From: Thioalkalivibrio sp. ALJ3
GTDB lineage: Bacteria; Pseudomonadota; Gammaproteobacteria; Ectothiorhodospirales; Ectothiorhodospiraceae
Reading direction: 5' to 3'
Assembly (NCBI RefSeq): GCF_000377205.1
Contig: NZ_KB897905.1
Coordinates: 616,586 to 680,585, forward strand
DNA: 64,000 bases
A model generated the notes under the pieces. It had not been told where the DNA came from and made no database searches. It saw nothing but the letters and a program-made list of their open reading frames with translations. The stretch's first letter is position 1. Every line of letters begins with the position of its first letter. Shown here piece after piece: positions 2,320 to 18,363 of the stretch. Both the position numbers and the translations under genes were made by a program.

Positions 2320-3963
2320 GTGAGCACGACCGTCACCACGGCCCAGCGGCTGGTCGAATGTCTGGAACAGGAACAGGTCGAGCGTGTATTCGGCCTGCCC
2401 GGCGAAGAGAACATGGCCGTTCTCGACGCGCTGGCCGATTCCCCGATCGAGTTCATCACCACGCGCCATGAGCAGGGCGCGGCCTTTATGGCCGACGTGC
2501 ACGGCCGTCTGTCCGGACATGCCGGCGTCTGCCTGGCAACCCTCGGCCCGGGTGCGACCAACCTGATCACCGGCGTCGCCGATGCCAACATGGACCACGC
2601 ACCGCTCGTCGCGATCGCGGGCCAGGCCAGTACCCACCGTCTGCACAAGGAGTCGCACCAGGTCCTTGACCTGAAGGGCCTGTTCCAGCCGATCACCAAA
2701 TACAGCTCCAGCGTGGTCGAACCCGAGATCCTGCCAGAGGTCGTGCGCAAGGCATTCAAGTGGGCCGAGGGCGGCAAACCCGGAGCCAGCTTTATCGAAC
2801 TGCCGGAGAATGTCGCGGCGCTGCCGTGTCCCAACCCCCCTCTCCCGGCCCATGCCGGCCCCGAGGCCGTACCCGCCGAGGCCTCGCTGGAAGCGGCCGC
2901 TCGGCTGCTCAATTCGGCGCAGCATCCGCTCATCCTCGCCGGCAACGGCGTGATCCGCTCGGGCGCCAGCGGCGCGCTGTCGCAGCTCGCCTCCGCGTTG
3001 AACATCCCGGTGGCCAACACCTTCATGGCCAAGGGCGTACTGCCCTTCCGCCACCCGCTGGCCCTGGGCTCGGTCGGACTGCAAAGCCAGGATTTCGTGA
3101 ACTTCGGCTTTCACAAGGCCGACGTGATCGTCTGCATCGGATATGACCTGGTGGAGTATCCGCCGAAGCTCTGGCATCCCACCGGGGACCGCACGCTGAT
3201 CCACATCGACTCCGCTCCGGCCGAGGTTGATGGCCACTACAATGTGTCCGCCGAAGTGATCGGCGACCTCAACACCTGCCTCGCACGCCTGATGGATCTG
3301 GTCGACCCACGCGAGGAGACCATCCTGCGCCCGCTGCGTCAGAGCTTGATCGACGACATGAACGAGCACTGCGAGGACACCCAGTTCCCGCTGAAGCCGC
3401 AAAAGCTGATCTGGGACCTGCGCACGGCAGCGGAGCTGGATGCGGTGGTGATTACCGACGTCGGTGCGCACAAACTCTGGATGGCGCGCATGTTCCGCTG
3501 CGAACTTCCCAACACCTGCCTGATCTCGAACGGCTTCGCCAGCATGGGCATCGCCCTGCCGGGGGCCATCGCGGCGGCACAACTCTACCCCGAACGCCAG
3601 GTGATCGCGGTCACGGGCGATGCCGGCTTCCTGATGAACGTGCAGGAACTGGAAACGGCCGTGCGGCTGGGTCAAAACTTCGTCGTACTGATCTGGAACG
3701 ACAACGCCTACGGCCTGATCGAGTGGAAGCAGGTGCGCGAATACGGTCGCAAGGCCTTCGTCGACTTCGGAAACCCGGACTTTGTCCAGCTGGCACGCTC
3801 GTTCGGAGCCAGCGGCGTGCGCATCGGCCCTGACGACAGCCTCGAGGCCGCCCTGCGCGAAGCATTGGCGGCGCCCGGCGTCACAATCATTGACTGCCCG
3901 GTCGACTACAGTGAAAACCTGAAACTGACGGAACGTTTGGGCGAACTGGTCTGTCCATTCTAG
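2320..3963 (+). CDS. Thiamine diphosphate-dependent acetolactate synthase-like large subunit
   Basis: 547 residues with GTG start. It shows the three-domain layout of TPP enzymes: N-terminal pyrimidine-binding domain with catalytic Glu51 (RHEQGAA), a central domain, and a C-terminal diphosphate-binding domain with GDAGFLMN followed by NDNAYGL. Sequence style matches acetolactate synthase large subunits of the single-subunit type, which condense two pyruvates to acetolactate. No regulatory small subunit (IlvH type) follows, so a biosynthetic ilvBH pair is unlikely here. A pyruvate- or glyoxylate-using relative cannot be excluded. The ribosome-binding site before GTG is weak. The stop overlaps a possible GTG start of the next gene. 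Confidence 0.8.
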   Translation: MSTTVTTAQRLVECLEQEQVERVFGLPGEENMAVLDALADSPIEFITTRHEQGAAFMADVHGRLSGHAGVCLATLGPGATNLITGVADANMDHAPLVAIAGQASTHRLHKESHQVLDLKGLFQPITKYSSSVVEPEILPEVVRKAFKWAEGGKPGASFIELPENVAALPCPNPPLPAHAGPEAVPAEASLEAAARLLNSAQHPLILAGNGVIRSGASGALSQLASALNIPVANTFMAKGVLPFRHPLALGSVGLQSQDFVNFGFHKADVIVCIGYDLVEYPPKLWHPTGDRTLIHIDSAPAEVDGHYNVSAEVIGDLNTCLARLMDLVDPREETILRPLRQSLIDDMNEHCEDTQFPLKPQKLIWDLRTAAELDAVVITDVGAHKLWMARMFRCELPNTCLISNGFASMGIALPGAIAAAQLYPERQVIAVTGDAGFLMNVQELETAVRLGQNFVVLIWNDNAYGLIEWKQVREYGRKAFVDFGNPDFVQLARSFGASGVRIGPDDSLEAALREALAAPGVTIIDCPVDYSENLKLTERLGELVCPF

Positions 3964-4868
3964 TGCCGCCCCCCATGGGTCGCGGTCGTCGCACAGGGAT
4001 TACACCAACCGATATGGGCAACGCCTCTGGAGCCAACGCCGAAGTCGAGCCGGCTGTTCCGGCGCCGGCTTCGCCGGGCCTCACCTATCAGCACGAGCAG
4101 GGTGCGCAGCGCCTGCGCTTGTTGAGCTTCAATGCGCAGGTGGGTATACCGTCCTCGCGCCTGCACCACTATGTGACCAATAGCTGGAAGCATGTCCTGC
4201 CCTACAAGGGCCGGCTGGGCAATCTCGACCGCGTTGCCCGCTTTATCTCGGACTTCGACATCGTGGGCGTGCAGGAGCTGGATGGTGGCAGTTTGCGGTC
4301 GAATTTCGTCGATCTTGCGTCGTACCTTTCCGAACGTGCCCGATTTCCGCACACCTACAATCGCATCAATCGCGACCTTGGGCAGTTCGCCAAGCACTCA
4401 CTGGCGCTTTTTTCACGGCTGGAACCACAACGCGTGGAGATGCACCGGCTGCCGGGCCCGCTGCCCGGGCGTGGCGCCATCGAGGCACGCTACCCAATGG
4501 GCGATGGCCAGGAGCTCGTCCTGTTTCTTCTGCACCTGGCGCTGGGTCGCCGAGCCAGACGGGCACAGCTCGACTATGTCGCCGAACGCATCCGCTCCGA
4601 ACGGCACGCAATCGTGATGGGGGACCTGAATTGCCAGCAGGACAGCCTGGAGATTCGTCACCTGGTCGCTCGCACCGGGCTGATGGAACCGATGAGCTGC
4701 CCGGCGACCTACCCCTCCTGGGATCCGCGTCTGGTCTTCGACCATATCCTGCTGACACCTGACCTCCATGTCAGCGACATGCGCGTGTACAACGTCGCGC
4801 TGTCGGACCACCTTCCGGTTGGCATCGAGATCGAGCTGCCACAAAGCCAGGCACTGCGAAGCGCCTGA
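3963..4868 (+). CDS. Endonuclease/exonuclease/phosphatase (EEP) family protein
   Basis: Up to 301 residues. The EEP fold is recognisable from LSFNAQVG near residue 50, QELDG (metal-binding Glu), GDLNCQ (catalytic Asp and Asn) and the C-terminal SDHLPVG. Members hydrolyse phosphodiester bonds in DNA, lipids or other phospho-substrates with a divalent metal; the substrate cannot be read from sequence. There is no signal peptide. The start is uncertain: GTG at 3963 overlaps the upstream stop (TAGTG), but ATG at 3975 or 4014 would remove a low-complexity N-terminus and all leave the catalytic domain intact. Confidence 0.78.
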   Translation: MPPPMGRGRRTGITPTDMGNASGANAEVEPAVPAPASPGLTYQHEQGAQRLRLLSFNAQVGIPSSRLHHYVTNSWKHVLPYKGRLGNLDRVARFISDFDIVGVQELDGGSLRSNFVDLASYLSERARFPHTYNRINRDLGQFAKHSLALFSRLEPQRVEMHRLPGPLPGRGAIEARYPMGDGQELVLFLLHLALGRRARRAQLDYVAERIRSERHAIVMGDLNCQQDSLEIRHLVARTGLMEPMSCPATYPSWDPRLVFDHILLTPDLHVSDMRVYNVALSDHLPVGIEIELPQSQALRSA

Positions 4869-7177: not shown

Positions 7178-9196
7178 TCAGGGCCGCCAGCCGAACTCGT
7201 CGGCCTTCTGGCGGGCCAGCGCCGGGATGTCGGTGGCGACGAACTTCTCGTGCAGCACCTGCACCCCGATCATGTGGTTGATCACAGCATCCAGCTGGAC
7301 CTGGGTGGCCGCCGGGGTGTTCTCGTCCTCGTGGATTTCGAACACACGACGCACACCTTCCGGGTCCAGCAGACCCGCCTCGGCCACCTTCTCGGGCGAC
7401 AGGTAGCGATCGGCCAGGGCCTTCATCGCCGCCCACTTGACCGGGTCGGTGTGCGCCGGCGGGGCCATGAACGCGAACTTCTCGCGCTCGTAGAGCACCT
7501 TGGGCAGCAGGCCCTTCATCGATTCGCGCAGCACATACTTCTCGGTGCGGCCCTTGATGCGCATGGTCGGCGGAAGGTGGGCACAGAATTCGGCCAGGTG
7601 GTGGTCGAGGAACGGCGGGCGCGCCTCCATGGAGTTGGCCATGTCCATGCGGTCACCACCCCAGGTCAGGATCTGGCCCTCCAGCATGGTCTTGATCCAG
7701 ACGTACTGGGCCTTGTCCAGCGGATGACGGCCTTCCAGCATGTCGTCATCCAGGGCGTTGGCGATCGCCTTGCCCGGCTGGTAGCCCTCCATGCGTTCGC
7801 GGCGTTTCGGGTGCAGCAGACCCGGGACGTGCTCGGCCGCTGCCAGCCAGGGCTGCAGGCACGACGGGGTAAAGCCCATCATCTTCGTAAACTCGGGGTC
7901 GTCGACCTCGTCCTCGGCCAGCATGGCGCCGGAGAACAGCTCGTTGGACTCGTTCAGCATCTGCTGCCAGGCGGCGCGGTCGGCCTCGGGCAGGGTGTCC
8001 AGGCCGTGCAGGAACATGTCGCGGCGGAAGGCCGGGTAGCCGCCGAACAGCTCGTCCGAACCCTCGCCGGTGACCACCACCTTGTAGCCCGCCTCGTTCA
8101 CGTGGCGGCTCATCAGCAGCTTGGCCACGCCGAGGGTATTGTAGATGGTGCGCTCGGCGTGCCACAGGGCCTCTTCGAAGTTGTCGTAGAGGTGGTCGGC
8201 GTCCAGTTTCAGGATGTCCTGATCGGCGCCGACGCTCTCGGCCATCTCGCGGGCGATCGCGGTCTCGTCGTAGTCGTCGTTGTCGAAGCCGATGGTGAAC
8301 GCCTTGACCGGCGACTGTTGGCTGGCCGAGGCCAGGCCCAGTGTGATGCAGGAGTCGATCCCGCCGGAGAGGTAGCAGGCCACCGGTACGTCGGCCTCCA
8401 GGCGCAGCTGGACCGCCTCCATCAACTGACTGCGCACACCCTCGATCCAGTAGTTCTCGTCGGTGTTCTCCTCTGGTGGGCGCTCGCTGGCCAGCGGGAA
8501 GTCCATGTCCCAGTACTTCTCCTGACGCACCTTCAGCTTGCCGTGGGCGCGCTCGACGATGACCATGTGGCCGGGCTTCACCTGCTGGATGCCCTCGAAG
8601 GCGGTGGTGCCCGGGACCATAGTCTGCATCAGCTGATGATAAAGCCCGTCATCGGCGAACTGGCGCGGAACATCGGGGTTGGCGAACAGCACCTTCAATT
8701 CGGAACCGAACACGAAGCTGCCGTTGGCCTCGGTGAAGTACAGGGGTTTGATGCCGAAGCGGTCGCGGATCAGCACCAGGCGATCATGCTCGCGGTCATA
8801 CAGCGAGATCGCGAATTCGCCGCGGAAGTGCTTGATCGCGTCCTCCAGGCCCTCGCGCCGGTACAGGTGCATGACCATCTCGGAGTCGCTCTTGGTGCGG
8901 AACTGCACCCCGCGCGAGGTCAGGTCGGTGCGGATACGCTTGTAGTCGTACAGCTCGCCGTTGACTGCGGTCATGATCGATCCGTCGGTCATGCAGAACG
9001 GCTGGCGTCCGCGGTTCTCGTCCAGGTCGATGATCGACAGCCGGGCGTGCGAGAAACCCACGCCACGATCGTCCTGGGTGCGATAGCCAAAGCCGTCGGG
9101 CCCGCGGTGATACTGGATCGCGGCCATATTGACCAGGGTCTGCGGGTCCACCTTGCGATTGGGGTCGGCGTGAAAGATTCCGGCGATGCCACACAT
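7178..9196 (-). CDS. AsnB-like glutamine-dependent amidotransferase (candidate C1 amidation of N-carbamoylglutamine)
   Basis: 672 residues. The Ntn-type glutaminase domain begins MCGIAGIFH with nucleophile Cys2 and has RGPDG and NGELY motifs. The synthetase domain carries the ATP pyrophosphatase loop SGGIDS near residues 277-282. Such enzymes activate a carboxylate as an acyl-adenylate and transfer ammonia from glutamine to form an amide. It is about 120 residues longer than E. coli AsnB. A good AAGGAG ribosome-binding site precedes the ATG. It is the last gene of the minus-strand unit, 88 bp after the carbamoyltransferase gene. Plain asparagine synthetase is possible, but the neighbours suggest a dedicated amide product. 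The family is certain and the substrate is inference. Confidence 0.88.
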   Translation of the reverse strand: MCGIAGIFHADPNRKVDPQTLVNMAAIQYHRGPDGFGYRTQDDRGVGFSHARLSIIDLDENRGRQPFCMTDGSIMTAVNGELYDYKRIRTDLTSRGVQFRTKSDSEMVMHLYRREGLEDAIKHFRGEFAISLYDREHDRLVLIRDRFGIKPLYFTEANGSFVFGSELKVLFANPDVPRQFADDGLYHQLMQTMVPGTTAFEGIQQVKPGHMVIVERAHGKLKVRQEKYWDMDFPLASERPPEENTDENYWIEGVRSQLMEAVQLRLEADVPVACYLSGGIDSCITLGLASASQQSPVKAFTIGFDNDDYDETAIAREMAESVGADQDILKLDADHLYDNFEEALWHAERTIYNTLGVAKLLMSRHVNEAGYKVVVTGEGSDELFGGYPAFRRDMFLHGLDTLPEADRAAWQQMLNESNELFSGAMLAEDEVDDPEFTKMMGFTPSCLQPWLAAAEHVPGLLHPKRRERMEGYQPGKAIANALDDDMLEGRHPLDKAQYVWIKTMLEGQILTWGGDRMDMANSMEARPPFLDHHLAEFCAHLPPTMRIKGRTEKYVLRESMKGLLPKVLYEREKFAFMAPPAHTDPVKWAAMKALADRYLSPEKVAEAGLLDPEGVRRVFEIHEDENTPAATQVQLDAVINHMIGVQVLHEKFVATDIPALARQKADEFGWRP

Positions 9197-9284
9197 GGCA
9201 TGTCTCCTTGGTTCGATTACGTGATGCGAGCGGGGCGCGGTTCATGGCGCGCCACGCCGCTCGCGGTTCAATTGCTACGCTGAA

Positions 9285-10358
9285 TCAGTCGTCCGGGGTG
9301 TCCATGACGGCACTGATGCGGCGGACCACCGTGGTCAACAGCGCCATGCGCACGAACACGGCCCCGCGGGCCTGGGCGAAGTACCAGTTGTGCGGGGTGT
9401 CGTCGAGATCCGTGGACAATTCGTCACCGCGGGCCAGGGGGTGCAGGATGACCGCGCCCTTCTTGAGCGGCGAATTGCGGTCCAGTTTCAGACCCTCGCC
9501 CATGGATTCGAAGGTATCGCCCACCCAGGCAATCGCGTTGATGTAGACGACGTCCAGTTCCGGCAGCAGCGGGTCCAGTTCGTGCACTACGCGAAGTTTC
9601 AGGCCAGCCTCTTCCAGTTCTTCGCGCTGGCCGGGATCGAAGTTCTCGTCCTCACGCGAGATGATCGCTACCTCTTCGACCGCATCCGGGAACAGGCTCA
9701 GCATGCGCAGCAGCGAACGCACGGTGCGCATGCGCGAGGGCACCCCGATGATCCCGACCTTGATGCGGTTCTCCGCGGCCACGGAGCCGGTGAACAGTTC
9801 CGGTCGCCACTTGGCCAGGGTGTAGACATCGGCCAGGGCCTGGGTTGGATGCTCGTCGATGCCGTTGCCGGCGTTGACCAACGGGATACGCAGGTTCTCC
9901 AGCATGTTGTGCGCCGCCTCGCCATCCGAGGAACGCAGCACCAGCACGTCGCCGTAGTTGTTGAACATCTCGGCGATGTCCGCTAGCGACTCGCCCTTGG
10001 CGATGCCGGTGCTCTTGGGGTCGGTGATCGACATCACCGCCCCGCCCAGGCGATGCCAGGCACTCTCGAACGACAGCCGCGTGCGGGTTGAGGGCTCGTA
10101 GAACGCGCTGATCAGGATCTTGCCGGCCAGCGGCAGATGCATCAGTGCCGGCGTGGTTTCGTACTGCGCGGCCAGGCGAAAGAGCTGCAGCAATTCGTCG
10201 CGCGAGAACTGCTGACTGGAGACCACATGCGCGGCTGCCAGCTTCAGGAGCGGGTCCGGGTCTTCCTCCACCGCCTCGACTAGGGCCTTCGGCCGGTCGG
10301 TACCGGCGGCGCCGTCTTTCGGGTGGAGCACGTGCAATGGATCTTCTGTGTAGTTCAC
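9285..10358 (-). CDS. ATCase-like carbamoyltransferase with non-aspartate acceptor site
   Basis: 357 residues from GTG 10358, which has AAGGA eight bases upstream and overlaps the stop of the small gene before it (GTGA). An upstream in-frame extension runs through that small gene and is not used. Carbamoyl-phosphate residues are present: STRTR at 90-94, Lys121 in AKGES, Arg142, HPTQ at 170-173, and HPLAR at 306-310 in place of HPLPR. Arg211 (RTVRSL) is kept. The segment matching the aspartate-binding TRVQ of E. coli PyrB reads NAIA at 274-277, so Arg229 and Gln231 are lost. A different amino acceptor, possibly glutamine, is therefore likely. No pyrI or pyrC neighbours. Confidence 0.85.
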   Translation of the reverse strand: MNYTEDPLHVLHPKDGAAGTDRPKALVEAVEEDPDPLLKLAAAHVVSSQQFSRDELLQLFRLAAQYETTPALMHLPLAGKILISAFYEPSTRTRLSFESAWHRLGGAVMSITDPKSTGIAKGESLADIAEMFNNYGDVLVLRSSDGEAAHNMLENLRIPLVNAGNGIDEHPTQALADVYTLAKWRPELFTGSVAAENRIKVGIIGVPSRMRTVRSLLRMLSLFPDAVEEVAIISREDENFDPGQREELEEAGLKLRVVHELDPLLPELDVVYINAIAWVGDTFESMGEGLKLDRNSPLKKGAVILHPLARGDELSTDLDDTPHNWYFAQARGAVFVRMALLTTVVRRISAVMDTPDD

Positions 10359-10477
10359 CAGAGGCGTCCTTTTTTCCAGTCGCGAATGAACATCGCCAGC
10401 AGCAGGATCGGGGTCAGTGTGGCCACCAGCGTGGCCACCACCACGATTACGGACAGGGCGGTCGTCGAGATGATCAT
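10355..10477 (-). CDS. 40-residue single-pass membrane protein, likely accessory subunit of the adjacent symporter
   Basis: The frame reads MIISTTALSVI at its start, continues through an uninterrupted hydrophobic segment (about residues 8-31) and ends in a basic tail, RDWKKGRLW. Its ATG overlaps the symporter stop (ATGA) and its TGA overlaps the carbamoyltransferase GTG start (GTGA). AGGAGG sits ten bases before the ATG, inside the end of the symporter gene. Overlaps on both sides plus a strong ribosome-binding site make a real gene very likely despite its size. Small single-TM partners are known for several sodium symporters (for example MetS-type proteins), so an accessory role is inferred; no homology could be tested. 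Confidence 0.8.
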   Translation of the reverse strand: MIISTTALSVIVVVATLVATLTPILLLAMFIRDWKKGRLW

Positions 10478-11940
10478 GCGGTCCGGACCTCCTCGGCCGT
10501 GGCGTCGCGGGACAGGCGATCCCAGTCAAACGGCCGCGGCGCCAGCCAGGTACTCAGCACCATCACGGCCAGGGAAACGGCCGCGCCCACCAGTGCCGCG
10601 ACATAAAAACCGATCAGGAAATAGCTGGCCAGCCCAATGCCCGACCCCAGTATCATCGACCAGGCCGCGCCGTGCGGGTTCGCGCGCCGCCAGTACAGCC
10701 CGGCCACAATCGGCCAGATCGCCGAGGCCACGAACGCACCCGTGAAGTACAGCAGCTCGGCCAGCGAGCCGATGATCGGCAGCTCGCCGCGATAGCTCGC
10801 AGCCAGCCAGGTCAGCAGACCCAGCAGCACGACGATCACCTTGGTCGCGCGGAACTGATTCTGTTCACTGGCCTGCGGGCGGATGTGGCCCCGGTAGATG
10901 TCGCGGGTAACCAGGTCCGAGGTGGCCGCCAGCAGCGAGTCGAGACTCGAGGCGAGCGCGGCGAAGACCACGATGAAAACCACGATCGCGCCGGTCAGCC
11001 CGAGCACCTCGGCCGCGACCAGCGGCCCGACCATGTCCGCGGCGGGCACATTGATGCCCAGTGCCGGCGTGGCGAGGGCGATGAAGCCGGCCACGATCGG
11101 GATCGGCAACCACAGCAGTCCGCCCAGCAGGTAGGCACGGAAGCCGACGTTGCGCCCGAAGGCGAACGCGCGCGACCACCAGACGTTGGAGTGGAAGATC
11201 TCGCCCACCCCGAACAGCAGGTTGTTGAACAGGAACATGATCGCGGCCGGGAACAGCAGGCTCAGCAGTTCCGGACGCTCTTCCATCAGGTTGAAGTGGA
11301 TCGCCTCGAAGCCAACCTTGTCGATGGTCAGCCAGGCGATGAACGCCGCGCCGGCGATGATGATGATGGTCTGGATGAAGTCCGTGCCGATGACCGCGCG
11401 CAGACCGCCCAGCAGGGTGTAGATCACGCAGACGGCCAGGATCACGGTCATGCCCACGCGGTAGTCGATCCCGGCCAGGGCATTGATCAGCACCCCGCCG
11501 GCCATCGCCATCGAGACCAGCCAGCCGAAGGCGTAGATCAGAGAGACCAGCAGGAACACGCGCCAGGTGAAGGTGCCGAAGCGCAGGCGTATGAAGTCCC
11601 CGGAGGTGAAGCCGCGTGGCATCAGCTCGCGGATGCGACGCGCCAGCGGCGCGAACAGGACCAGGCCCAGCGCGCCCAGCGAATACCCGAGCATGCCCCA
11701 GACCCCCAGCTGCAGCGCCAGCTGCGGGGCAGTCATCGTAGTGTTGGCCGTCACCCAGGTGGCCATCGCAGTCGCGGTGGCCAGCGCGAGCCCCACGTTG
11801 CGACCGGCCAGCATGTGGTCCTCGGCGGTCTTGTTGTGACGACCCAGCCACCAGCCGAGCGCCACCCAGAGGATGCTGAACGCAATCAGCAGCCCCCAGG
11901 CGATGGAGGTCGGGAGGATCGGGTCGTCGAGGCCGGTCAC
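10474..11940 (-). CDS. Sodium:solute symporter (SSS family)
   Basis: 488 residues with about 13 hydrophobic segments. The SSS family signature region includes ATWVTANTTM near residue 60 and, in the later half, ASSLDSLLAATSDLVTRDIYR, typical of the segment around the second sodium site. By eye the N-terminal half resembles the urea/DUR3-like branch, but this is weak. It would couple uptake of a small solute to the sodium gradient. The GTG start has AAGGAGG upstream and overlaps the stop of the amidase gene. Position between degradative hydrolases and synthetic enzymes suggests recovery or uptake of the same compound. Confidence 0.88.
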   Translation of the reverse strand: MTGLDDPILPTSIAWGLLIAFSILWVALGWWLGRHNKTAEDHMLAGRNVGLALATATAMATWVTANTTMTAPQLALQLGVWGMLGYSLGALGLVLFAPLARRIRELMPRGFTSGDFIRLRFGTFTWRVFLLVSLIYAFGWLVSMAMAGGVLINALAGIDYRVGMTVILAVCVIYTLLGGLRAVIGTDFIQTIIIIAGAAFIAWLTIDKVGFEAIHFNLMEERPELLSLLFPAAIMFLFNNLLFGVGEIFHSNVWWSRAFAFGRNVGFRAYLLGGLLWLPIPIVAGFIALATPALGINVPAADMVGPLVAAEVLGLTGAIVVFIVVFAALASSLDSLLAATSDLVTRDIYRGHIRPQASEQNQFRATKVIVVLLGLLTWLAASYRGELPIIGSLAELLYFTGAFVASAIWPIVAGLYWRRANPHGAAWSMILGSGIGLASYFLIGFYVAALVGAAVSLAVMVLSTWLAPRPFDWDRLSRDATAEEVRTA

Positions 11941-12680
11941 GAGGCCTCCTTCACCTTCTTGATCTCGCGGATCGCCTCGTCGGTGGTCATCACGCGGGCG
12001 TAGCGATCCTTGATGGTGGTAATCGTCGCCTTCTGCATCTCCGGGGTCACCGTCGCGGTGGCGTCGTCCATCAACGTGACATAGAAGCCCAGATCACAGG
12101 CATCGCGCACGGCCGTGGATACACACTCGTTGGAGTACACGCCGACGATGAACAGCGCCGAAATGTTCAGGTTGCGCAGGATGTAGTGCAGGTTGGTCGA
12201 GTTGAAGACCCCGCTGGCGGTCTTGTCCAGCACGATCTCGTCGCCCACCGGTGCCACCTGCTCGACGAACTCCGCGTCCTTGGAGCCGGGCGCGGCATGC
12301 AGACCCAGGCGCTTGTGTCCCGGACTGCGGTCGCGGCCGTCGTGGGTCAGTGAGCGGATGCGCGTGTGGATGACCTCCAGCCCCTGCTCGCGAAACGCGT
12401 CCTGCAGCCGGCGCACGTTCGGCAGCACCGTCTGCTCCAGGCGGTTGAAGTAGTACTCCTGCGCCTCGGGCGGTACCCCCGACTGCACCGAGTCGGCGAA
12501 CACGCCGTGACCGCGCGCGGCGTCGAGGTACTGCAGGTCGATACACAGCAGGGCGACGTGATGCTCGCGCAGCTCCTGACGCAGGACCGGGGTCGTGATC
12601 AGGCTCTCCTGGTACTGCTCGCGCAGCGGATCCAGGGAGTCGTAGTCGGTGAGCTGGGAGACGTTGTCGTTATTGGCCAT
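11937..12680 (-). CDS. Isochorismatase-fold cysteine hydrolase (amidase)
   Basis: 247 residues. The catalytic triad of the cysteine hydrolase superfamily is in place: Asp48 (CIDLQ), Lys153 (LDKTASGVFN) and Cys186 (SNECVSTAVRDA). Members hydrolyse amides such as nicotinamide, ureidoacrylate, biuret and N-carbamoylsarcosine. A good AAGGA precedes the ATG, and the stop overlaps the symporter GTG by four bases. In this operon a role in removing a terminal amide or a carbamoyl group is plausible. It is not a nicotinamidase by context. No signal peptide, so the enzyme is cytosolic. Confidence 0.87.
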   Translation of the reverse strand: MANNDNVSQLTDYDSLDPLREQYQESLITTPVLRQELREHHVALLCIDLQYLDAARGHGVFADSVQSGVPPEAQEYYFNRLEQTVLPNVRRLQDAFREQGLEVIHTRIRSLTHDGRDRSPGHKRLGLHAAPGSKDAEFVEQVAPVGDEIVLDKTASGVFNSTNLHYILRNLNISALFIVGVYSNECVSTAVRDACDLGFYVTLMDDATATVTPEMQKATITTIKDRYARVMTTDEAIREIKKVKEAS

Positions 12681-12716
12681 GCCGAGCGGTCCTTGGGTCG
12701 CGGTGACGAGAAATGC

Positions 12717-13958
12717 TCACGAACGGGCGGCCAGGGCCAGGGCGCTTTGCAGCGTCAGGTTGGCGCCGGTCTCGATGTCCTCCCAGTTTGTCCATTCCGC
12801 CGCGGAATGGCTACGCCCCTGCAGGCTCGGCACGAAGATCATGCCGGTACGCGTGATCGCGCTCATGCTCTGCGTGTCGTGCGCGGCCCCGCTCGGCATG
12901 GTCAGGTACTCCAGGCCCATGCGTTCGGCCGTCGCCTCGATGGTCTGCACGATGCCCGTGTCGCAGCGCACCGGATCGATCTCGGAGAGCACATCGAACT
13001 CGAACATCAGGTCGCGCCGGCGCGCGAGGCTGGACAACGTGCGGCGGGCCGCGTGGGCCAGCGCGGTCAGGACTTTCTCGTCGGTATCGCGCACCTCGAA
13101 GGAGAACGTCGCCATGCCCGGCACGGTGTTCGCCGCCCCCGGCGAGAGCTCCACGCGGCCGATGGTCGCGCGCGAGTTCGGGCTGCCGTGTTCCTCCAGC
13201 AGTCGATTGATCTCGCCGCCGAACTCGGCCAGCCCCTGGAAGGCATCGATGCGCATGTCCATGGGCGTGGTGCCCGCATGGTTCGGCTGCCCCTTCAGGC
13301 GCACCTCCCACTTGAACAGGCCGGTGATCGCCTCGACCACGCCCACGCTCAGGCCGCGGCGATCCAGCACCGGGCCCTGTTCGATATGGGTCTCGATGAA
13401 GGCATGCAAGGTGTGCGGGTCGCGTCGGGCACTCAGCGCATCATCGGCGTTAAGTCCCCAGTCCGCCATCGCCTCGACCAGGGTGATGCCCTCGAGGTCA
13501 CGGGCATGGCTGATGCTTTCCGGAGTCAGCTTGCCGGCAATCGCCTGGGAACCAAACATGCCGCCAAACCGGCCCTCCTCGTCGGTAAAGTCGATCACCT
13601 CGAGCGGATACTGCAGCTCGACCGCGTTCTCCTTGGCCGTGCGCAGGACCTCCAGCCCGATCAGCACACCGAGCGCACCATCCAGTGGCCCGCCACCGGG
13701 CACGGTATCGAGATGCGAGCCCATGGCGACCACCGGGCGCTTGCCGTCGTAGTCCAGGCGACCGTGCAGATTGGCGGCGCCGTCTTGCCAGACATCCAGC
13801 CCCGCGGCCTCCAGCCGGCCACGAAACCACTCGCGCCCGGCACGGTCACCCTCGCTGAAGGCACGCCGGTGCAGACCACGGTCGGCATCGCGCCCGATCT
13901 GGGCCAGGTCGCTGATGTCCTGTTGCAAGCGCGGCATGTTGATCTTGAGTTCGTGCAT
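12717..13958 (-). CDS. M20-family N-carbamoyl-L-amino acid hydrolase (hydantoinase/carbamoylase, AmaB-like)
   Basis: 413 residues of the M20 amidase/carbamoylase group. Metal ligands are visible: His82 and Asp93 in GSHLDTV...LDGALG, Glu127-Glu128 in FTDEEGR, and His191 in ETHIEQGPVLD. GMFGSQAIAG is also characteristic. The group includes N-carbamoyl-L-amino acid hydrolases, allantoate amidohydrolase and beta-ureidopropionase, which release CO2 and ammonia from a ureido group. GGAGA precedes the ATG. Lying beside a carbamoyltransferase, it would carry out the opposite reaction on an N-carbamoyl amino acid. An allantoate pathway is less likely because no allantoinase or ureidoglycolate genes are present. 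Confidence 0.9.
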   Translation of the reverse strand: MHELKINMPRLQQDISDLAQIGRDADRGLHRRAFSEGDRAGREWFRGRLEAAGLDVWQDGAANLHGRLDYDGKRPVVAMGSHLDTVPGGGPLDGALGVLIGLEVLRTAKENAVELQYPLEVIDFTDEEGRFGGMFGSQAIAGKLTPESISHARDLEGITLVEAMADWGLNADDALSARRDPHTLHAFIETHIEQGPVLDRRGLSVGVVEAITGLFKWEVRLKGQPNHAGTTPMDMRIDAFQGLAEFGGEINRLLEEHGSPNSRATIGRVELSPGAANTVPGMATFSFEVRDTDEKVLTALAHAARRTLSSLARRRDLMFEFDVLSEIDPVRCDTGIVQTIEATAERMGLEYLTMPSGAAHDTQSMSAITRTGMIFVPSLQGRSHSAAEWTNWEDIETGANLTLQSALALAARS

Positions 13959-14027
13959 CGTGTTCTCCGTCAGGGCCTCCAGGCCCGGTCGCAGTGCACG
14001 CGGATCGACGGGGCGGGGCAGATGAAT

Positions 14028-14426
14028 TCAGTCGCGCGGCCGGCCGCGCAGGATGGCCACGATCAGGACCAGGAAGACGACGCCACCCAGTACAAAGAAG
14101 CCGAAGGCCCGGGTCAGGCTGTGATGCGCCACCTCGACGCGGGCCTCGTCGGCCCAGTCGTCCGCGCCCTCGGCCCTGAGGCGAAAGCGATACTCGCCAT
14201 CCGGGAGGCCGCTGATCACGCTGCTGGTATCCCCGCCGCGATAGATCACGCGGGCGTCATCGAAGTCCGGGCCGCTTGCCTGTTCGAGTTCGACTGGGCC
14301 CTCGGCGTTCCATTGCAGTGTCAGGCCGCCATCACGCGTGTCGCTGGGCGGGTCGTCGAATCGCGGCTCGGCCAGAGCAACCAGCGGCAACAGCAGCAAC
14401 AGGCTGGAGAGCAGGAGAGAGCGCAT
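14028..14426 (-). CDS. Small exported FN3-like protein with C-terminal membrane anchor
   Basis: 132 residues: an N-terminal signal peptide (LLLSSLLLLLPLVALA), a beta-rich domain of about 75 residues with fibronectin type III character (LQWNAEGPVELEQA, then LPDGEYRFRLRA), and a C-terminal transmembrane segment followed by RGRPRD. The domain would face the periplasm. It lies between the MarR gene and the carbamoylase gene, so it belongs to the same transcription unit. Its function is unknown; a structural, sensory or porin/transport-associated role is possible. Confidence 0.7.
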   Translation of the reverse strand: MRSLLLSSLLLLLPLVALAEPRFDDPPSDTRDGGLTLQWNAEGPVELEQASGPDFDDARVIYRGGDTSSVISGLPDGEYRFRLRAEGADDWADEARVEVAHHSLTRAFGFFVLGGVVFLVLIVAILRGRPRD

Positions 14427-14451
14427 GGCGCATTCCCGGCGGCAACGCCGC

Positions 14452-15000
14452 TCAGGTCTTCACCTCGAACGGCTGCAGACCGGCGCGAGGCTCGGTGGTG
14501 TTCATCGCCTCGACCAGCAGGGTCAGCCCCTGATCCAGCTCCGCCAGGCGCTCGGACGGGAGGGCGTGCAACGCGCGGTTCAACTCGCCCTGGGGGGCCG
14601 CCGGGGCATCGGACAGGAGCTCCTCCCCCTTGGGCGTGACATACAGCCGTACGATGCGCTGGTCCTTCTCCGGGCGGCGGCGCTCGACCAGCCCGCTGTA
14701 TTCCAGCTTGTCCAGCAGGTTCGAGGTGGTCGAGGCATGGACCGACAGCCGGCGAGAAAGATCGCTGACATTCAGCCCAGGCGTACGCTGCAGCTCCCAC
14801 AGGGCCCACAACTGCGAGGCGCTGATGCCACAGGCACGCTCGACGGCCCGCGAGTGCCCCTGCAGGGCGCGGATGATCACGCGCAGCTGACGGATCACGG
14901 AACGCGGCAGATCCGGTTCCCCTTCCGTCGCGGGGCGTTGAGGTTCGTTCTGGGCAGAAACAGCTGACATCACAGTCGGGCTCAGTGTGGCTATTGCCAT
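14452..15000 (-). CDS. MarR-family transcriptional regulator (EctR/CosR-like)
   Basis: Up to 182 residues. A winged helix-turn-helix is clear: ISASQLWALWELQ, then LNVSDLSRRLSVHASTTSNLL as recognition helix region and a basic wing (ERRRPEKDQRIVRLYVT). The N-terminal helix pattern IRQLRVIIRALQGHSR recalls EctR/CosR regulators of ectoine and other compatible-solute genes, which are MarR proteins of similar size; this is an eye comparison. There is no ribosome-binding site before ATG 15000, so translation may be leaderless or start at Met11 (14970). A palindrome lies immediately upstream. It heads the minus-strand operon. Confidence 0.85.
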   Translation of the reverse strand: MAIATLSPTVMSAVSAQNEPQRPATEGEPDLPRSVIRQLRVIIRALQGHSRAVERACGISASQLWALWELQRTPGLNVSDLSRRLSVHASTTSNLLDKLEYSGLVERRRPEKDQRIVRLYVTPKGEELLSDAPAAPQGELNRALHALPSERLAELDQGLTLLVEAMNTTEPRAGLQPFEVKT

Positions 15001-16587: not shown

Positions 16588-16743
16588 CGCAGATGCAGGA
16601 AGTAGCGGGCTTCATGCGGATGAGACCATGCGCTTCGGGGCCACAAAAACAAGGCACATTCACGACGCCGGACCCCCGCAGCCCGTACACGGATGGACCA
16701 AAGGCTGTCGGCGGTTCCGGACCTGTTTTCCAAGGAGGAGATC

Positions 16744-18363
16744 GTGAGCGACAACGCACAAGATCCACAACGGGAGATCGAGGAGCTCGAAGCCCGTTAC
16801 GAGACCGATCACGAGATCGGCGAACAGAACATCAACCCGCTGGGGCTGGATCTGCACAACCCGGTATTCGCCGTCAGCGCCCTGTTGATCCTCGTGTTCG
16901 TGATCCTGTCCCTGCTGTTCCCGGAACAGGCCGACGAGGGCCTGGGCGCCACGCGCGCCTGGATCGGCGAAACCTTTGACTGGCTGTTCCTGTCGGCCGG
17001 CAACCTGTTCGTGCTGTTCTGCCTGGCCCTGATCCTGCTGCCGATCGGGAGCATCCGGATTGGTGGTCAGGATGCGAAGCCGGACTTCGGGGTGCTGTCC
17101 TGGTTCTCGATGCTGTTCGCCGCCGGCATGGGCATCGGGCTGATGTTCTGGGCCGTGGCCGAACCGGTGGGCTACTTCACCGAGTGGTTCGGGACGCCGC
17201 TCGGCATCGAGGGCGGCACCGAGGCCTCCAAGCACGCGGCCCTTGGCGCCACGATGTATCACTGGGGCCTGCACCCGTGGGCGATCTATGCCGTGGTGGG
17301 CCTGGCCCTGGCGTTCTTTGCCTTCAACAAGGGCCTGCCGCTGACCATCCGCTCCGCGTTCTACCCGATCTTCGGCGAGCGGATCTGGGGCCCGATCGGG
17401 CATGTGATCGACACCCTGGCGGTACTCGCCACCCTGTTCGGCCTGGCCACCTCCCTGGGTCTTGGGGCGCAGCAGGCGGCATCGGGGCTGGAGTCGGTGT
17501 TCGGCATCGAGGCCGGGCTGAACACCCAGGTCGCGATCATCATCGGCGTTACCGTCATCGCCCTGTTGTCGATCATGCGCGGCATCCATGGCGGGGTGCG
17601 CGTGCTCAGCAACATCAACCTGACGCTGGCGGCCATCCTGCTGCTGTTCGTGGCCCTGTTCGGCGGCTTTATCGCCTTCCTCTCCAACACCGGCATCACG
17701 TTGAGCGCCTACGCCCAGTACATGTGGCCGCTCAGCAACCCGGTGGGCCGTGATGACCAGACCTTCTACCACGAGTGGACGATCTTCTTCTGGGCCTGGT
17801 GGATCTCCTGGTCGCCGTTTGTCGGCATGTTCATCGCGCGGGTCTCGCGCGGGCGCACGGTGCGTCAGTTCGTGACCGCGGTGCTGCTGGTGCCGACGGC
17901 CGTGACCGTGATCTGGATGAGTGCCTTTGGCGGGACCGGCCTCGATCAGGCCCGCGACGGAGTCGGCGCGCTGGCCGACGGCATCAGCGACTCCTCGCTG
18001 GCGCTGTTCCAGTTGCTGGAGCACCTGCCGCTGACCACGATCACCTCGCTGCTGGCGATCACCCTGGTGCTGGTCTTCTTCATCACCTCGTCGGACTCCG
18101 GCTCGCTGGTGATCGACTCGATCACCTCCGGCGGCAAGACCGATGCCCCGCAGTCCCAGCGCCTGTTCTGGGCCACGGTCGAGGGCGTGATCGCTGGCGT
18201 GCTGCTGGCGGTGGGTGGCGCGGCCGCGCTGCAGGCCCTGCAGGCCGGCGCGGTGAGCACCGGCCTGCCCTTCGTGATCGTGCTGCTGTTCATGTGTGTC
18301 AGCCTGATGATGGGGCTGTTCCACGAACTGAAGCTGATCCGGCTGAAGGAGGCGGCCGGGTAG
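16744..18363 (+). CDS. BCCT-family betaine/choline/carnitine transporter
   Basis: 539 residues from GTG 16744, which has AAGGAGG upstream; an earlier in-frame ATG at 16693 lacks one. Twelve hydrophobic segments are visible. BCCT landmarks are the glycine-rich AAGMGIGLMFWAVAEP near residue 130 and the tryptophan segment FFWAWWISWSPFVGMFIARVSRGR near residue 350. The family takes up quaternary ammonium osmolytes with Na+ or H+. The C-terminal cytoplasmic tail is short, so osmosensing through a long tail as in BetP is not expected. Together with the neighbouring minus-strand operon it points to salt adaptation. Confidence 0.93.
   Translation: MSDNAQDPQREIEELEARYETDHEIGEQNINPLGLDLHNPVFAVSALLILVFVILSLLFPEQADEGLGATRAWIGETFDWLFLSAGNLFVLFCLALILLPIGSIRIGGQDAKPDFGVLSWFSMLFAAGMGIGLMFWAVAEPVGYFTEWFGTPLGIEGGTEASKHAALGATMYHWGLHPWAIYAVVGLALAFFAFNKGLPLTIRSAFYPIFGERIWGPIGHVIDTLAVLATLFGLATSLGLGAQQAASGLESVFGIEAGLNTQVAIIIGVTVIALLSIMRGIHGGVRVLSNINLTLAAILLLFVALFGGFIAFLSNTGITLSAYAQYMWPLSNPVGRDDQTFYHEWTIFFWAWWISWSPFVGMFIARVSRGRTVRQFVTAVLLVPTAVTVIWMSAFGGTGLDQARDGVGALADGISDSSLALFQLLEHLPLTTITSLLAITLVLVFFITSSDSGSLVIDSITSGGKTDAPQSQRLFWATVEGVIAGVLLAVGGAAALQALQAGAVSTGLPFVIVLLFMCVSLMMGLFHELKLIRLKEAAG

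Follow-up and report, generated by a model that had tools for sequence, protein, structure and literature searches.

An AsnB-like enzyme takes part in making N-acetylglutaminylglutamine amide (NAGGN), a C-terminal amide derived from glutamine, and the NAGGN gene cluster also includes a hydrolase. N-alpha-carbamoyl-L-glutamine 1-amide (CGA) was described in 1991 and Ectothiorhodospira marismortui is named as accumulating it (PMC1224877), as the initial annotation of the DNA analysed here had stated. No assignment of genes to CGA was found in the accessible parts of the open-access literature searched. In aspartate transcarbamylase (ATCase, PyrB), residues R229 and Q231 hold the beta-carboxyl group of aspartate and R167 and K84* its alpha-carboxyl group; the RxQxER motif is found in all known ATCases, and new members of the transcarbamylase family are said to remain to be investigated (Shi, Allewell and Tuchman, PMC4581275). 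Here we describe a set of eight open reading frames (ORFs) in Thioalkalivibrio sp. ALJ3, lying at positions 7178-15000 of a window of 64,000 nucleotides (the whole stretch analysed, positions 616,586 to 680,585 of contig NZ_KB897905.1, in a genome of 2.63 Mb), all on the minus strand. The set, which includes a carbamoyltransferase (CT) and an AsnB-like amidotransferase, is best explained as a pathway for the synthesis, breakdown and recovery of CGA, and we consider this reading probable.

We infer the following scheme from the families and residues described below. The CT would move the carbamoyl group from carbamoyl phosphate onto the alpha-amino group of glutamine, after which the AsnB-like enzyme would activate the free alpha-carboxylate with ATP and amidate it with glutamine-derived ammonia, giving the net-neutral solute CGA. 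In the reverse direction an isochorismatase-fold amidase would take off the C1 amide, and an M20-family hydrolase, which should need a free carboxylate, would then remove the carbamoyl group to return glutamine. Leaked CGA would be recaptured by an SSS-family symporter with a 40-residue partner, and a MarR-family regulator would control the set. Such a set would be a compatible-solute cluster parallel to that of NAGGN, with a transcarbamylase of apparently new specificity. The reading had been put forward in the initial annotation, and it gains support from the presence of the set in the CGA producer, from the coupling of its genes in two pairs, from the loss of the aspartate motif in the CT and from the occurrence of the same genes in the same 21 of 369 genomes; the enzyme specificities are predictions.

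Strain DSM 4180T is listed as E. marismortui in a table of PMC7824335, and the name E. marismortui resolves to E. mobilis in the taxonomy database. The locus of E. mobilis DSM 4180 (L129 in our collection) contains the CT, the AsnB-like gene, the amidase, the M20 hydrolase and the MarR regulator. The proposal had been made to depend on producers carrying the pair of CT and AsnB-like genes; DSM 4180 was checked and carries both. Gene counts for the producer were taken from a genome (G006) that shows no difference from the record of DSM 4180 across 16,001 bases. This was one of nine genomes searched, each with exactly three PF02729 genes, which by their motifs are ArgF, PyrB and the CT. As the CT is the sole carbamoyltransferase besides ArgF and PyrB, it is the only candidate if the carbamoyl group of CGA is put on by a transcarbamylase. 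DSM 4180 also has eight PF00733 matches, five of them above 270 bits, including one NAGGN-type amidotransferase and one enzyme encoded beside the CT.

To compare loci, genome contigs were scanned for stretches encoding a CT relative, and the best 80 of 531 were kept; the latter figure is not an orthologue count, as one of the two scan patterns may occur in other carbamoyltransferases. The closest CT matches among these best 80 come from Thioalkalivibrio. Module patterns were scored in the 64 loci that extend at least 5 kb to either side of the CT. The AsnB-like gene is present in 63 of these 64, and it lies downstream of the CT in 75 of the 76 loci with at least 1.5 kb of downstream sequence. 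The amidase and M20 genes (at least 50% identity) are both present in 38/64 and both missing in 26/64, and neither is ever found alone (0/64). This pairing would be expected if the steps of the CT and AsnB-like enzymes follow directly on each other and the amidase and M20 enzymes serve two steps of a different process, such as its reverse. All parts occur together in 25 of the 64 loci, while the rest hold the symporter, small peptide and AsnB-like gene (9), the M20, amidase and AsnB-like genes (8), the symporter and AsnB-like gene (7), the FN3-like membrane protein (see below), symporter, small peptide and AsnB-like gene (5), everything except the small peptide (4), the FN3-like, symporter and AsnB-like genes (4), the M20, amidase, symporter and AsnB-like genes (1), or the small peptide only (1). 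A relative of the FN3-like protein is encoded upstream in 38 of the 64 loci, all 38 of which have the symporter. Loci of Idiomarina, Aliidiomarina and Kangiella combine the synthesis pair with the symporter and have no amidase at the locus, and an M20 gene of lower identity (43-49%) lies close to several loci, Kangiella among them. The MarR regulator, which had been counted as a member of the cluster, is present in the window and in the producer's locus but was not found at all loci.

The same association holds at the level of genomes. Of 47 genomes of the same bacterial order, 41 gave a CT match, as did 38/38 of those with completeness of at least 90% and contamination of at most 5%. Among 369 sampled gammaproteobacterial genomes, 25 match the CT at E 1e-50 or better, of which 21 carry orthologues (at least 60% identity) and four only distant paralogues (37-42%); one of the 21 also carries such a paralogue, bringing the genomes with paralogues to 5/369. 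The AsnB-like search of the same genomes gave 28 matches at 1e-100, with at least 68% identity in exactly the 21 CT carriers and only 35-42% in the seven others, and amidase matches, all of at least 64% identity, were confined to the same 21 genomes. Co-occurrence of the CT and AsnB-like genes gives a Fisher p of ~1e-34, a figure for this sample that is uncorrected for the relatedness of the genomes. In a second sample of 36 loci, overlapping the 80, the AsnB-like gene adjoins the CT in 28; five of the remaining eight hold a distant paralogue only, two end at a contig edge and one is from Thiorhodospira. Adjacency in 28 of 36 loci, together with recurrence of the set in 80, is more than chance would give. 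The survey suggested in the initial annotation was aimed at the Ectothiorhodospiraceae; the cluster is present in that family, but its range is far wider. Five metagenome-assembled genomes labelled as spirochaetes (Leptospiraceae and Spirochaetaceae; L145, L156, L157, L161 and L180) have the order SSS-CT-M20-amidase-AsnB, an altered arrangement that may reflect transfer between phyla.

Motifs of the CT were counted across the 80 loci, and its substrate loop was aligned with that of E. coli PyrB in nine CT rows. The CT shares its fold and its carbamoyl-phosphate motifs with ATCase (SxRT in 80/80, HPTQ in 79/80), as well as the residues for the alpha-carboxylate, with a K84-type KGE motif in 80/80 and an R167-type arginine in 79/80. 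In contrast to ATCase it has no RxQxER, the motif of the 240's loop (0/80), and it reads HPLA (80/80) in place of HPLP or HPGP; the transcarbamylase HxLP motif, as HPLP, HPGP or HCLP, is found in 0/80. This motif allows some variation (PMC4581275), and the genomes' own PyrB reads HPGP there. At the position of RxQxER in ATCase and of DxxxSMG in ornithine transcarbamylase (OTCase, ArgF), the nine aligned rows read NAIAWVG, NSIAWVG or NSIAWIG, and the signature YIN[AS]IAW occurs in 69/80; the register of the loop is uncertain, and the window's CT has no Arg or Gln there in either register. The CT belongs to the same family as OTCase, but its N...W.G loop stands where OTCase has DxxxSMG, with the Asp and SMG replaced, and that motif is found at the loop in none of the nine rows. 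A DxxxSMG string does occur in 12/80 CTs, and the window's CT has DTFESMG further on, not aligned with the OTCase motif. In the tree, built without the distant paralogues, two duplicates and a partial row, the CTs form one clade (100/100) on the ATCase side, with E. coli PyrB joining weakly beside it on a long branch (84/78). A true PyrB coexists with the CT in 9/9 genomes, as does a separate ArgF. An AlphaFold model (mean pLDDT 74.8, pTM 0.81) has the ATCase fold, with top PDB matches at TM ~0.75/0.85; as part of the substrate loops has pLDDT <50-60, no argument is made from the pocket. From the motifs, the CT should accept an alpha-amino acid whose alpha-carboxylate is free and whose side chain is uncharged, such as glutamine, and since the alpha-carboxylate residues are kept, carbamoylation would precede amidation.

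This motif pattern fits glutamine and would also fit other neutral amino acids. The same two steps might therefore act on another of these, for example asparagine, and yield an undescribed ureido amino-acid amide: an N...W.G loop in place of RxQxER suits any neutral side chain, and the low-confidence model loops leave the pocket unsized. Against this, CGA is the known compound bearing both modifications, and its source strain has the set, which leads us to regard a different amino acid as unlikely.

The distant CT paralogues deserve separate mention. The site reading covers two rows (L092, ~3866-4855, and L094, ~7706-8695; L086, L091 and L093 were left out), in which the SxRT and HPTQ sites look degenerate, with the strings QPVNRTR + ENPSQ and QAHPRIR + ESPTN. 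From these sites it is possible that the paralogue is a pseudo-enzyme or has a different function.

The AsnB-like enzyme of the window keeps the N-terminal Cys2 and an SGGIDS loop, and both the N-terminal Cys of the glutaminase and the SGG.DS loop of the synthetase are present in 25 of 25 CT-linked or orthologous AsnB-like rows, which were picked by an MCG start with no loss of a chosen locus holding the gene. In one draft genome (L074, 897-2877) the AsnB-like gene is split over two frames, through either an assembly frameshift or a broken gene. Against the NAGGN amidotransferase family TIGR03104 the window's enzyme scores 304 bits, below the cut-off of 570, and the AsnB-like enzymes group in a single clade (100/100) that does not include the NAGGN enzyme AsnO, although the deeper joins of this tree are unsafe because of long branches. 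The genome holding the window has a separate TIGR03104 enzyme (909 bits; L101 7291-9075, G000:C8), and none of the seven neighbouring ORFs scanned was recognisable as a further NAGGN gene. In the class sample, TIGR03104 is found in 19 of the 21 CT carriers compared to 141 of 348 other genomes (p 9.5e-6). The proposed route thus parallels that of NAGGN in using an AsnB-like enzyme for C-terminal amidation of a blocked glutamine derivative, and differs from it in having carbamoyl in place of acetyl and an amidotransferase of a separate clade.

N-carbamoyl-L-amino acid hydrolases are usually met in the context of hydantoin use. The nearest solved structure to the M20 enzyme is such an L-carbamoylase (3n5f, 273 bits), but the window's enzyme sits in a biosynthetic cluster. 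Its N277 and R290 align with the kept Asn and Arg of 3n5f, which we take to bind the substrate carboxylate; as these are retained, the M20 enzyme should act after removal of the C1 amide. For the amidase, D48, K153 and C186 occupy the candidate triad positions and are, by the triad rule, presumably catalytic. Its nearest solved relative is the cysteine hydrolase 6xix, presumably a triuret hydrolase, and N-carbamoylsarcosine amidohydrolase (1nba) and biuret hydrolases are also matched, with a best score of 61 bits. With these it has the isochorismatase fold in common at low similarity, but the target proposed here is the C1 amide, whereas theirs is a ureido group. The division of labour between amidase and M20 enzyme is thus one that we infer.

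The best solved relatives of the symporter are DUR3 urea symporters (E 5.6e-33, compared to 3.3e-17 for SGLT1). As CGA contains a ureido group, we count this in favour of CGA recovery. The symporter differs from DUR3 in being shorter (488 aa compared to ~700-770) and in having a short partner peptide. Some SSS transporters are known to have such small partners. Among the 63 loci with the symporter, tblastn detected the 40-aa peptide in 45; in 14 of the remaining 18 there is a hydrophobic ORF with LW or IW at its end, so it is plausible that the peptide is a subunit of the symporter. A single-span peptide of 30-40 residues, of no known family, thus lies between symporter and CT in most symporter loci.

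A number of observations weigh against the CGA pathway. Nothing in the sequence proves glutamine over another neutral amino acid, and the earlier choice of glutamine as the predicted carbamoyl acceptor is backed by the lack of the aspartate and ornithine motifs in the CT. A lysine follows the loop tryptophan (NAIAWKGD) in at least 3/80 CTs and a glutamate in others; the loop thus varies in charge and is positive in some. The AsnB-like enzyme scores over the cut-off of the asparagine synthase family TIGR01536, but the NAGGN enzyme does so too, and this family therefore does not discriminate. Ureido groups are the targets of the amidase's solved relatives, so that the amidase itself could act on the carbamoyl group instead. 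The amidase is absent from 26 of the 64 loci; the perfect match of 21/21 in the class sample must therefore partly reflect the lineages drawn, and as all 21 carriers have the amidase, that sample seems to be without lineages of the Idiomarina, Aliidiomarina or Kangiella type. No symporter and no 40-aa peptide were seen in the 19 kb of the producer's locus, which makes transport optional: the initial annotation had the symporter recover the solute, and an SSS gene is present in 55 of the 64 loci, but the producer does without it at its locus and other loci may lack it too. In Thiorhodospira sibirica (L131) the CT and a small-peptide match lie between patatin-like and lipid A acyltransferase genes, and the AsnB-like orthologue (L226, 74% identity) lies away from them. 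Ectoine synthase occurs in 1/21 carriers compared to 52/348 others, a depletion that is not significant (p 0.33).

The literature adds further points on the same side. The solutes named for Thioalkalivibrio in the accessible parts of PMC9062515 and of the K90mix genome paper (PMC3368412) are betaine and sucrose, not CGA, and the table of up-regulated genes in T. versutus D301, as far as it is accessible, lists nitrogen genes only, with neither a CT nor an asparagine synthetase (PMC9062515). According to one review, CGA is known from one organism, as a minor solute unseen by Raman (PMC3857566), yet the CT is present in at least 80 contigs; the few reports of CGA, compared to this wide spread, reflect either a gap in testing or another product. 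However, CGA is said elsewhere to occur in other purple sulfur bacteria, and CGA or NAGGN has been suggested among the candidate solutes of T. sibirica (PMC7824335), which, as that organism has both the CT and an AsnB-like orthologue, we count in favour of CGA. In T. versutus D301 at 3.0 M Na+, genes for glutamine synthetase, nitrate and ammonium were up and betaine genes unchanged, and the authors tie the rise in nitrogen genes to betaine (PMC9062515). A nitrogen-rich solute would fit this response, and the set is present in another T. versutus strain (L113).

The product could be CGA and its main role nonetheless be nitrogen storage or exchange rather than osmotic balance. CGA holds four nitrogens, degradation genes are present in 38 of the 64 loci, and nitrogen-assimilation genes of T. 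versutus respond to salt (PMC9062515). We consider a primarily nitrogenous role improbable, as many of the named carriers are marine, soda-lake or saline organisms (many of the metagenome-assembled genomes are of unstated habitat), and both the association with NAGGN and the reported compatible-solute role of CGA fit an osmolyte.

The relatives of both hydrolases that act on ureides raise another alternative, a ureide-catabolic operon in which the CT would run backwards to give carbamoyl phosphate for ATP formation and the hydrolases would degrade relatives of allantoate or biuret. Catabolic CTs are indeed used in arginine, agmatine and ureidoglycine pathways (PMC4581275), and among 22 genomes (those of T. 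sibirica and the 21 carriers) three, one of them the window's own, encode a full-length carbamate-kinase-like protein that scores below the family cut-off. However, carbamate kinase over the cut-off was found in 0/22, and none of the three weaker homologues shares a contig with the set. Moreover, an ATP-consuming amidotransferase has no place in a catabolic route, and yet no other partner accompanies the CT more constantly; 26/64 loci are without the hydrolase pair. We therefore hold such an operon to be very improbable. The carbamate-kinase-like gene in the window's genome (G000:C8:58474-59361) scores 332 bits, under the arcC cut-off of 358.

That the AsnB-like enzyme is an ordinary asparagine synthetase and the CT a second pyrimidine ATCase, as chance neighbours, is scarcely credible, for although TIGR01536 is over its cut-off, the best CT matches are ATCases and E. 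coli PyrB has a weak link (84/78) to the CT clade on a long branch, the sequence argues strongly against it, with a separate PyrB bearing the full motif in 9/9 genomes, RxQxER in 0/80 CTs, both genes carried by the same 21/369 genomes and each protein forming one clade at 100/100.

The features of the window are collected in Table 1. Eight co-directional genes with close or overlapping junctions had been claimed, and all were found. Overlaps of 4 bp occur at three junctions (amidase/symporter, symporter/40-aa ORF and 40-aa ORF/CT), and the other gaps are 25 bp (MarR/FN3-like), 69 bp (FN3-like/M20), 36 bp (M20/amidase) and 88 bp (CT/AsnB-like). The start of the CT is placed at the GTG at 10358, a longer TTG ORF from 10529 not being used. 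The family labels given initially hold for six of the eight genes, each with a Pfam or NCBIfam match; neither database gave a family for the 40-aa peptide or for the "FN3-like" protein, leaving the latter label unconfirmed. A pattern scan found no promoter-like site just 5' of the MarR gene and no terminator-like site 3' of the AsnB-like gene on their own strands (in total, 3 promoter-like sites compared to 1.0 expected, sd 1.1, and 5 terminator-like sites compared to 2.8 expected, sd 1.7). On the opposite strand the set is adjoined by a porin-like ORF without a Pfam match and by a BCCT transporter, and the neighbours at 1-6 kb and 18-24 kb of the window are unrelated by Pfam. Among flanking families clustered in at least 4 of the 80 loci none looked osmotic beyond the set, as judged by the first residues of unannotated proteins in a clustering that is weak, since the gene caller picks wrong-strand ORFs in GC-rich loci.

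Table 1. The eight genes of the putative CGA set and a divergent neighbour, in window coordinates.
Feature	Position	Strand	Family match
AsnB-like glutamine-dependent amidotransferase, 672 aa	7178..9196	-	TIGR01536 423 bits, PF00733, GATase_7
Carbamoyltransferase (CT), 357 aa from GTG	9285..10358	-	PF02729/PF00185
Single-span membrane peptide, 40 aa	10355..10477	-	no Pfam/NCBIfam match
SSS-family symporter, 488 aa	10474..11940	-	PF00474
Isochorismatase-fold cysteine amidase, 247 aa	11937..12680	-	PF00857
M20 N-carbamoyl-L-amino acid hydrolase, 413 aa	12717..13958	-	TIGR01879 363.9 bits, cut-off 204
Small membrane protein, initially labelled "FN3-like"	14028..14426	-	no Pfam/NCBIfam match
MarR-family regulator, 182 aa	14452..15000	-	PF01047
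BCCT betaine/choline-type transporter, divergent neighbour outside the set	16693..18363	+	PF02028 590 bits

Beyond the window, we lean slightly towards the wider proposition, taken as a whole, that the CT founds a class of glutamine transcarbamylases marked by the YIN[AS]IAW and HPLA signatures and that CGA, as a solute or nitrogen currency with a dedicated transporter, urea-symporter-like and with the 40-residue peptide as its subunit, is common in marine and soda-lake Gammaproteobacteria, including Idiomarina, Kangiella, Pleionea and Thioalkalivibrio, and in some spirochaetes. If the CGA reading is true, these genes would no longer be annotated as encoding aspartate carbamoyltransferase and asparagine synthetase, a new transcarbamylase specificity would be defined, and CGA production in a laboratory host would become a two-gene test. 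The pair of CT and AsnB-like genes would then be a marker predicting CGA in many bacteria for which there is no such report.

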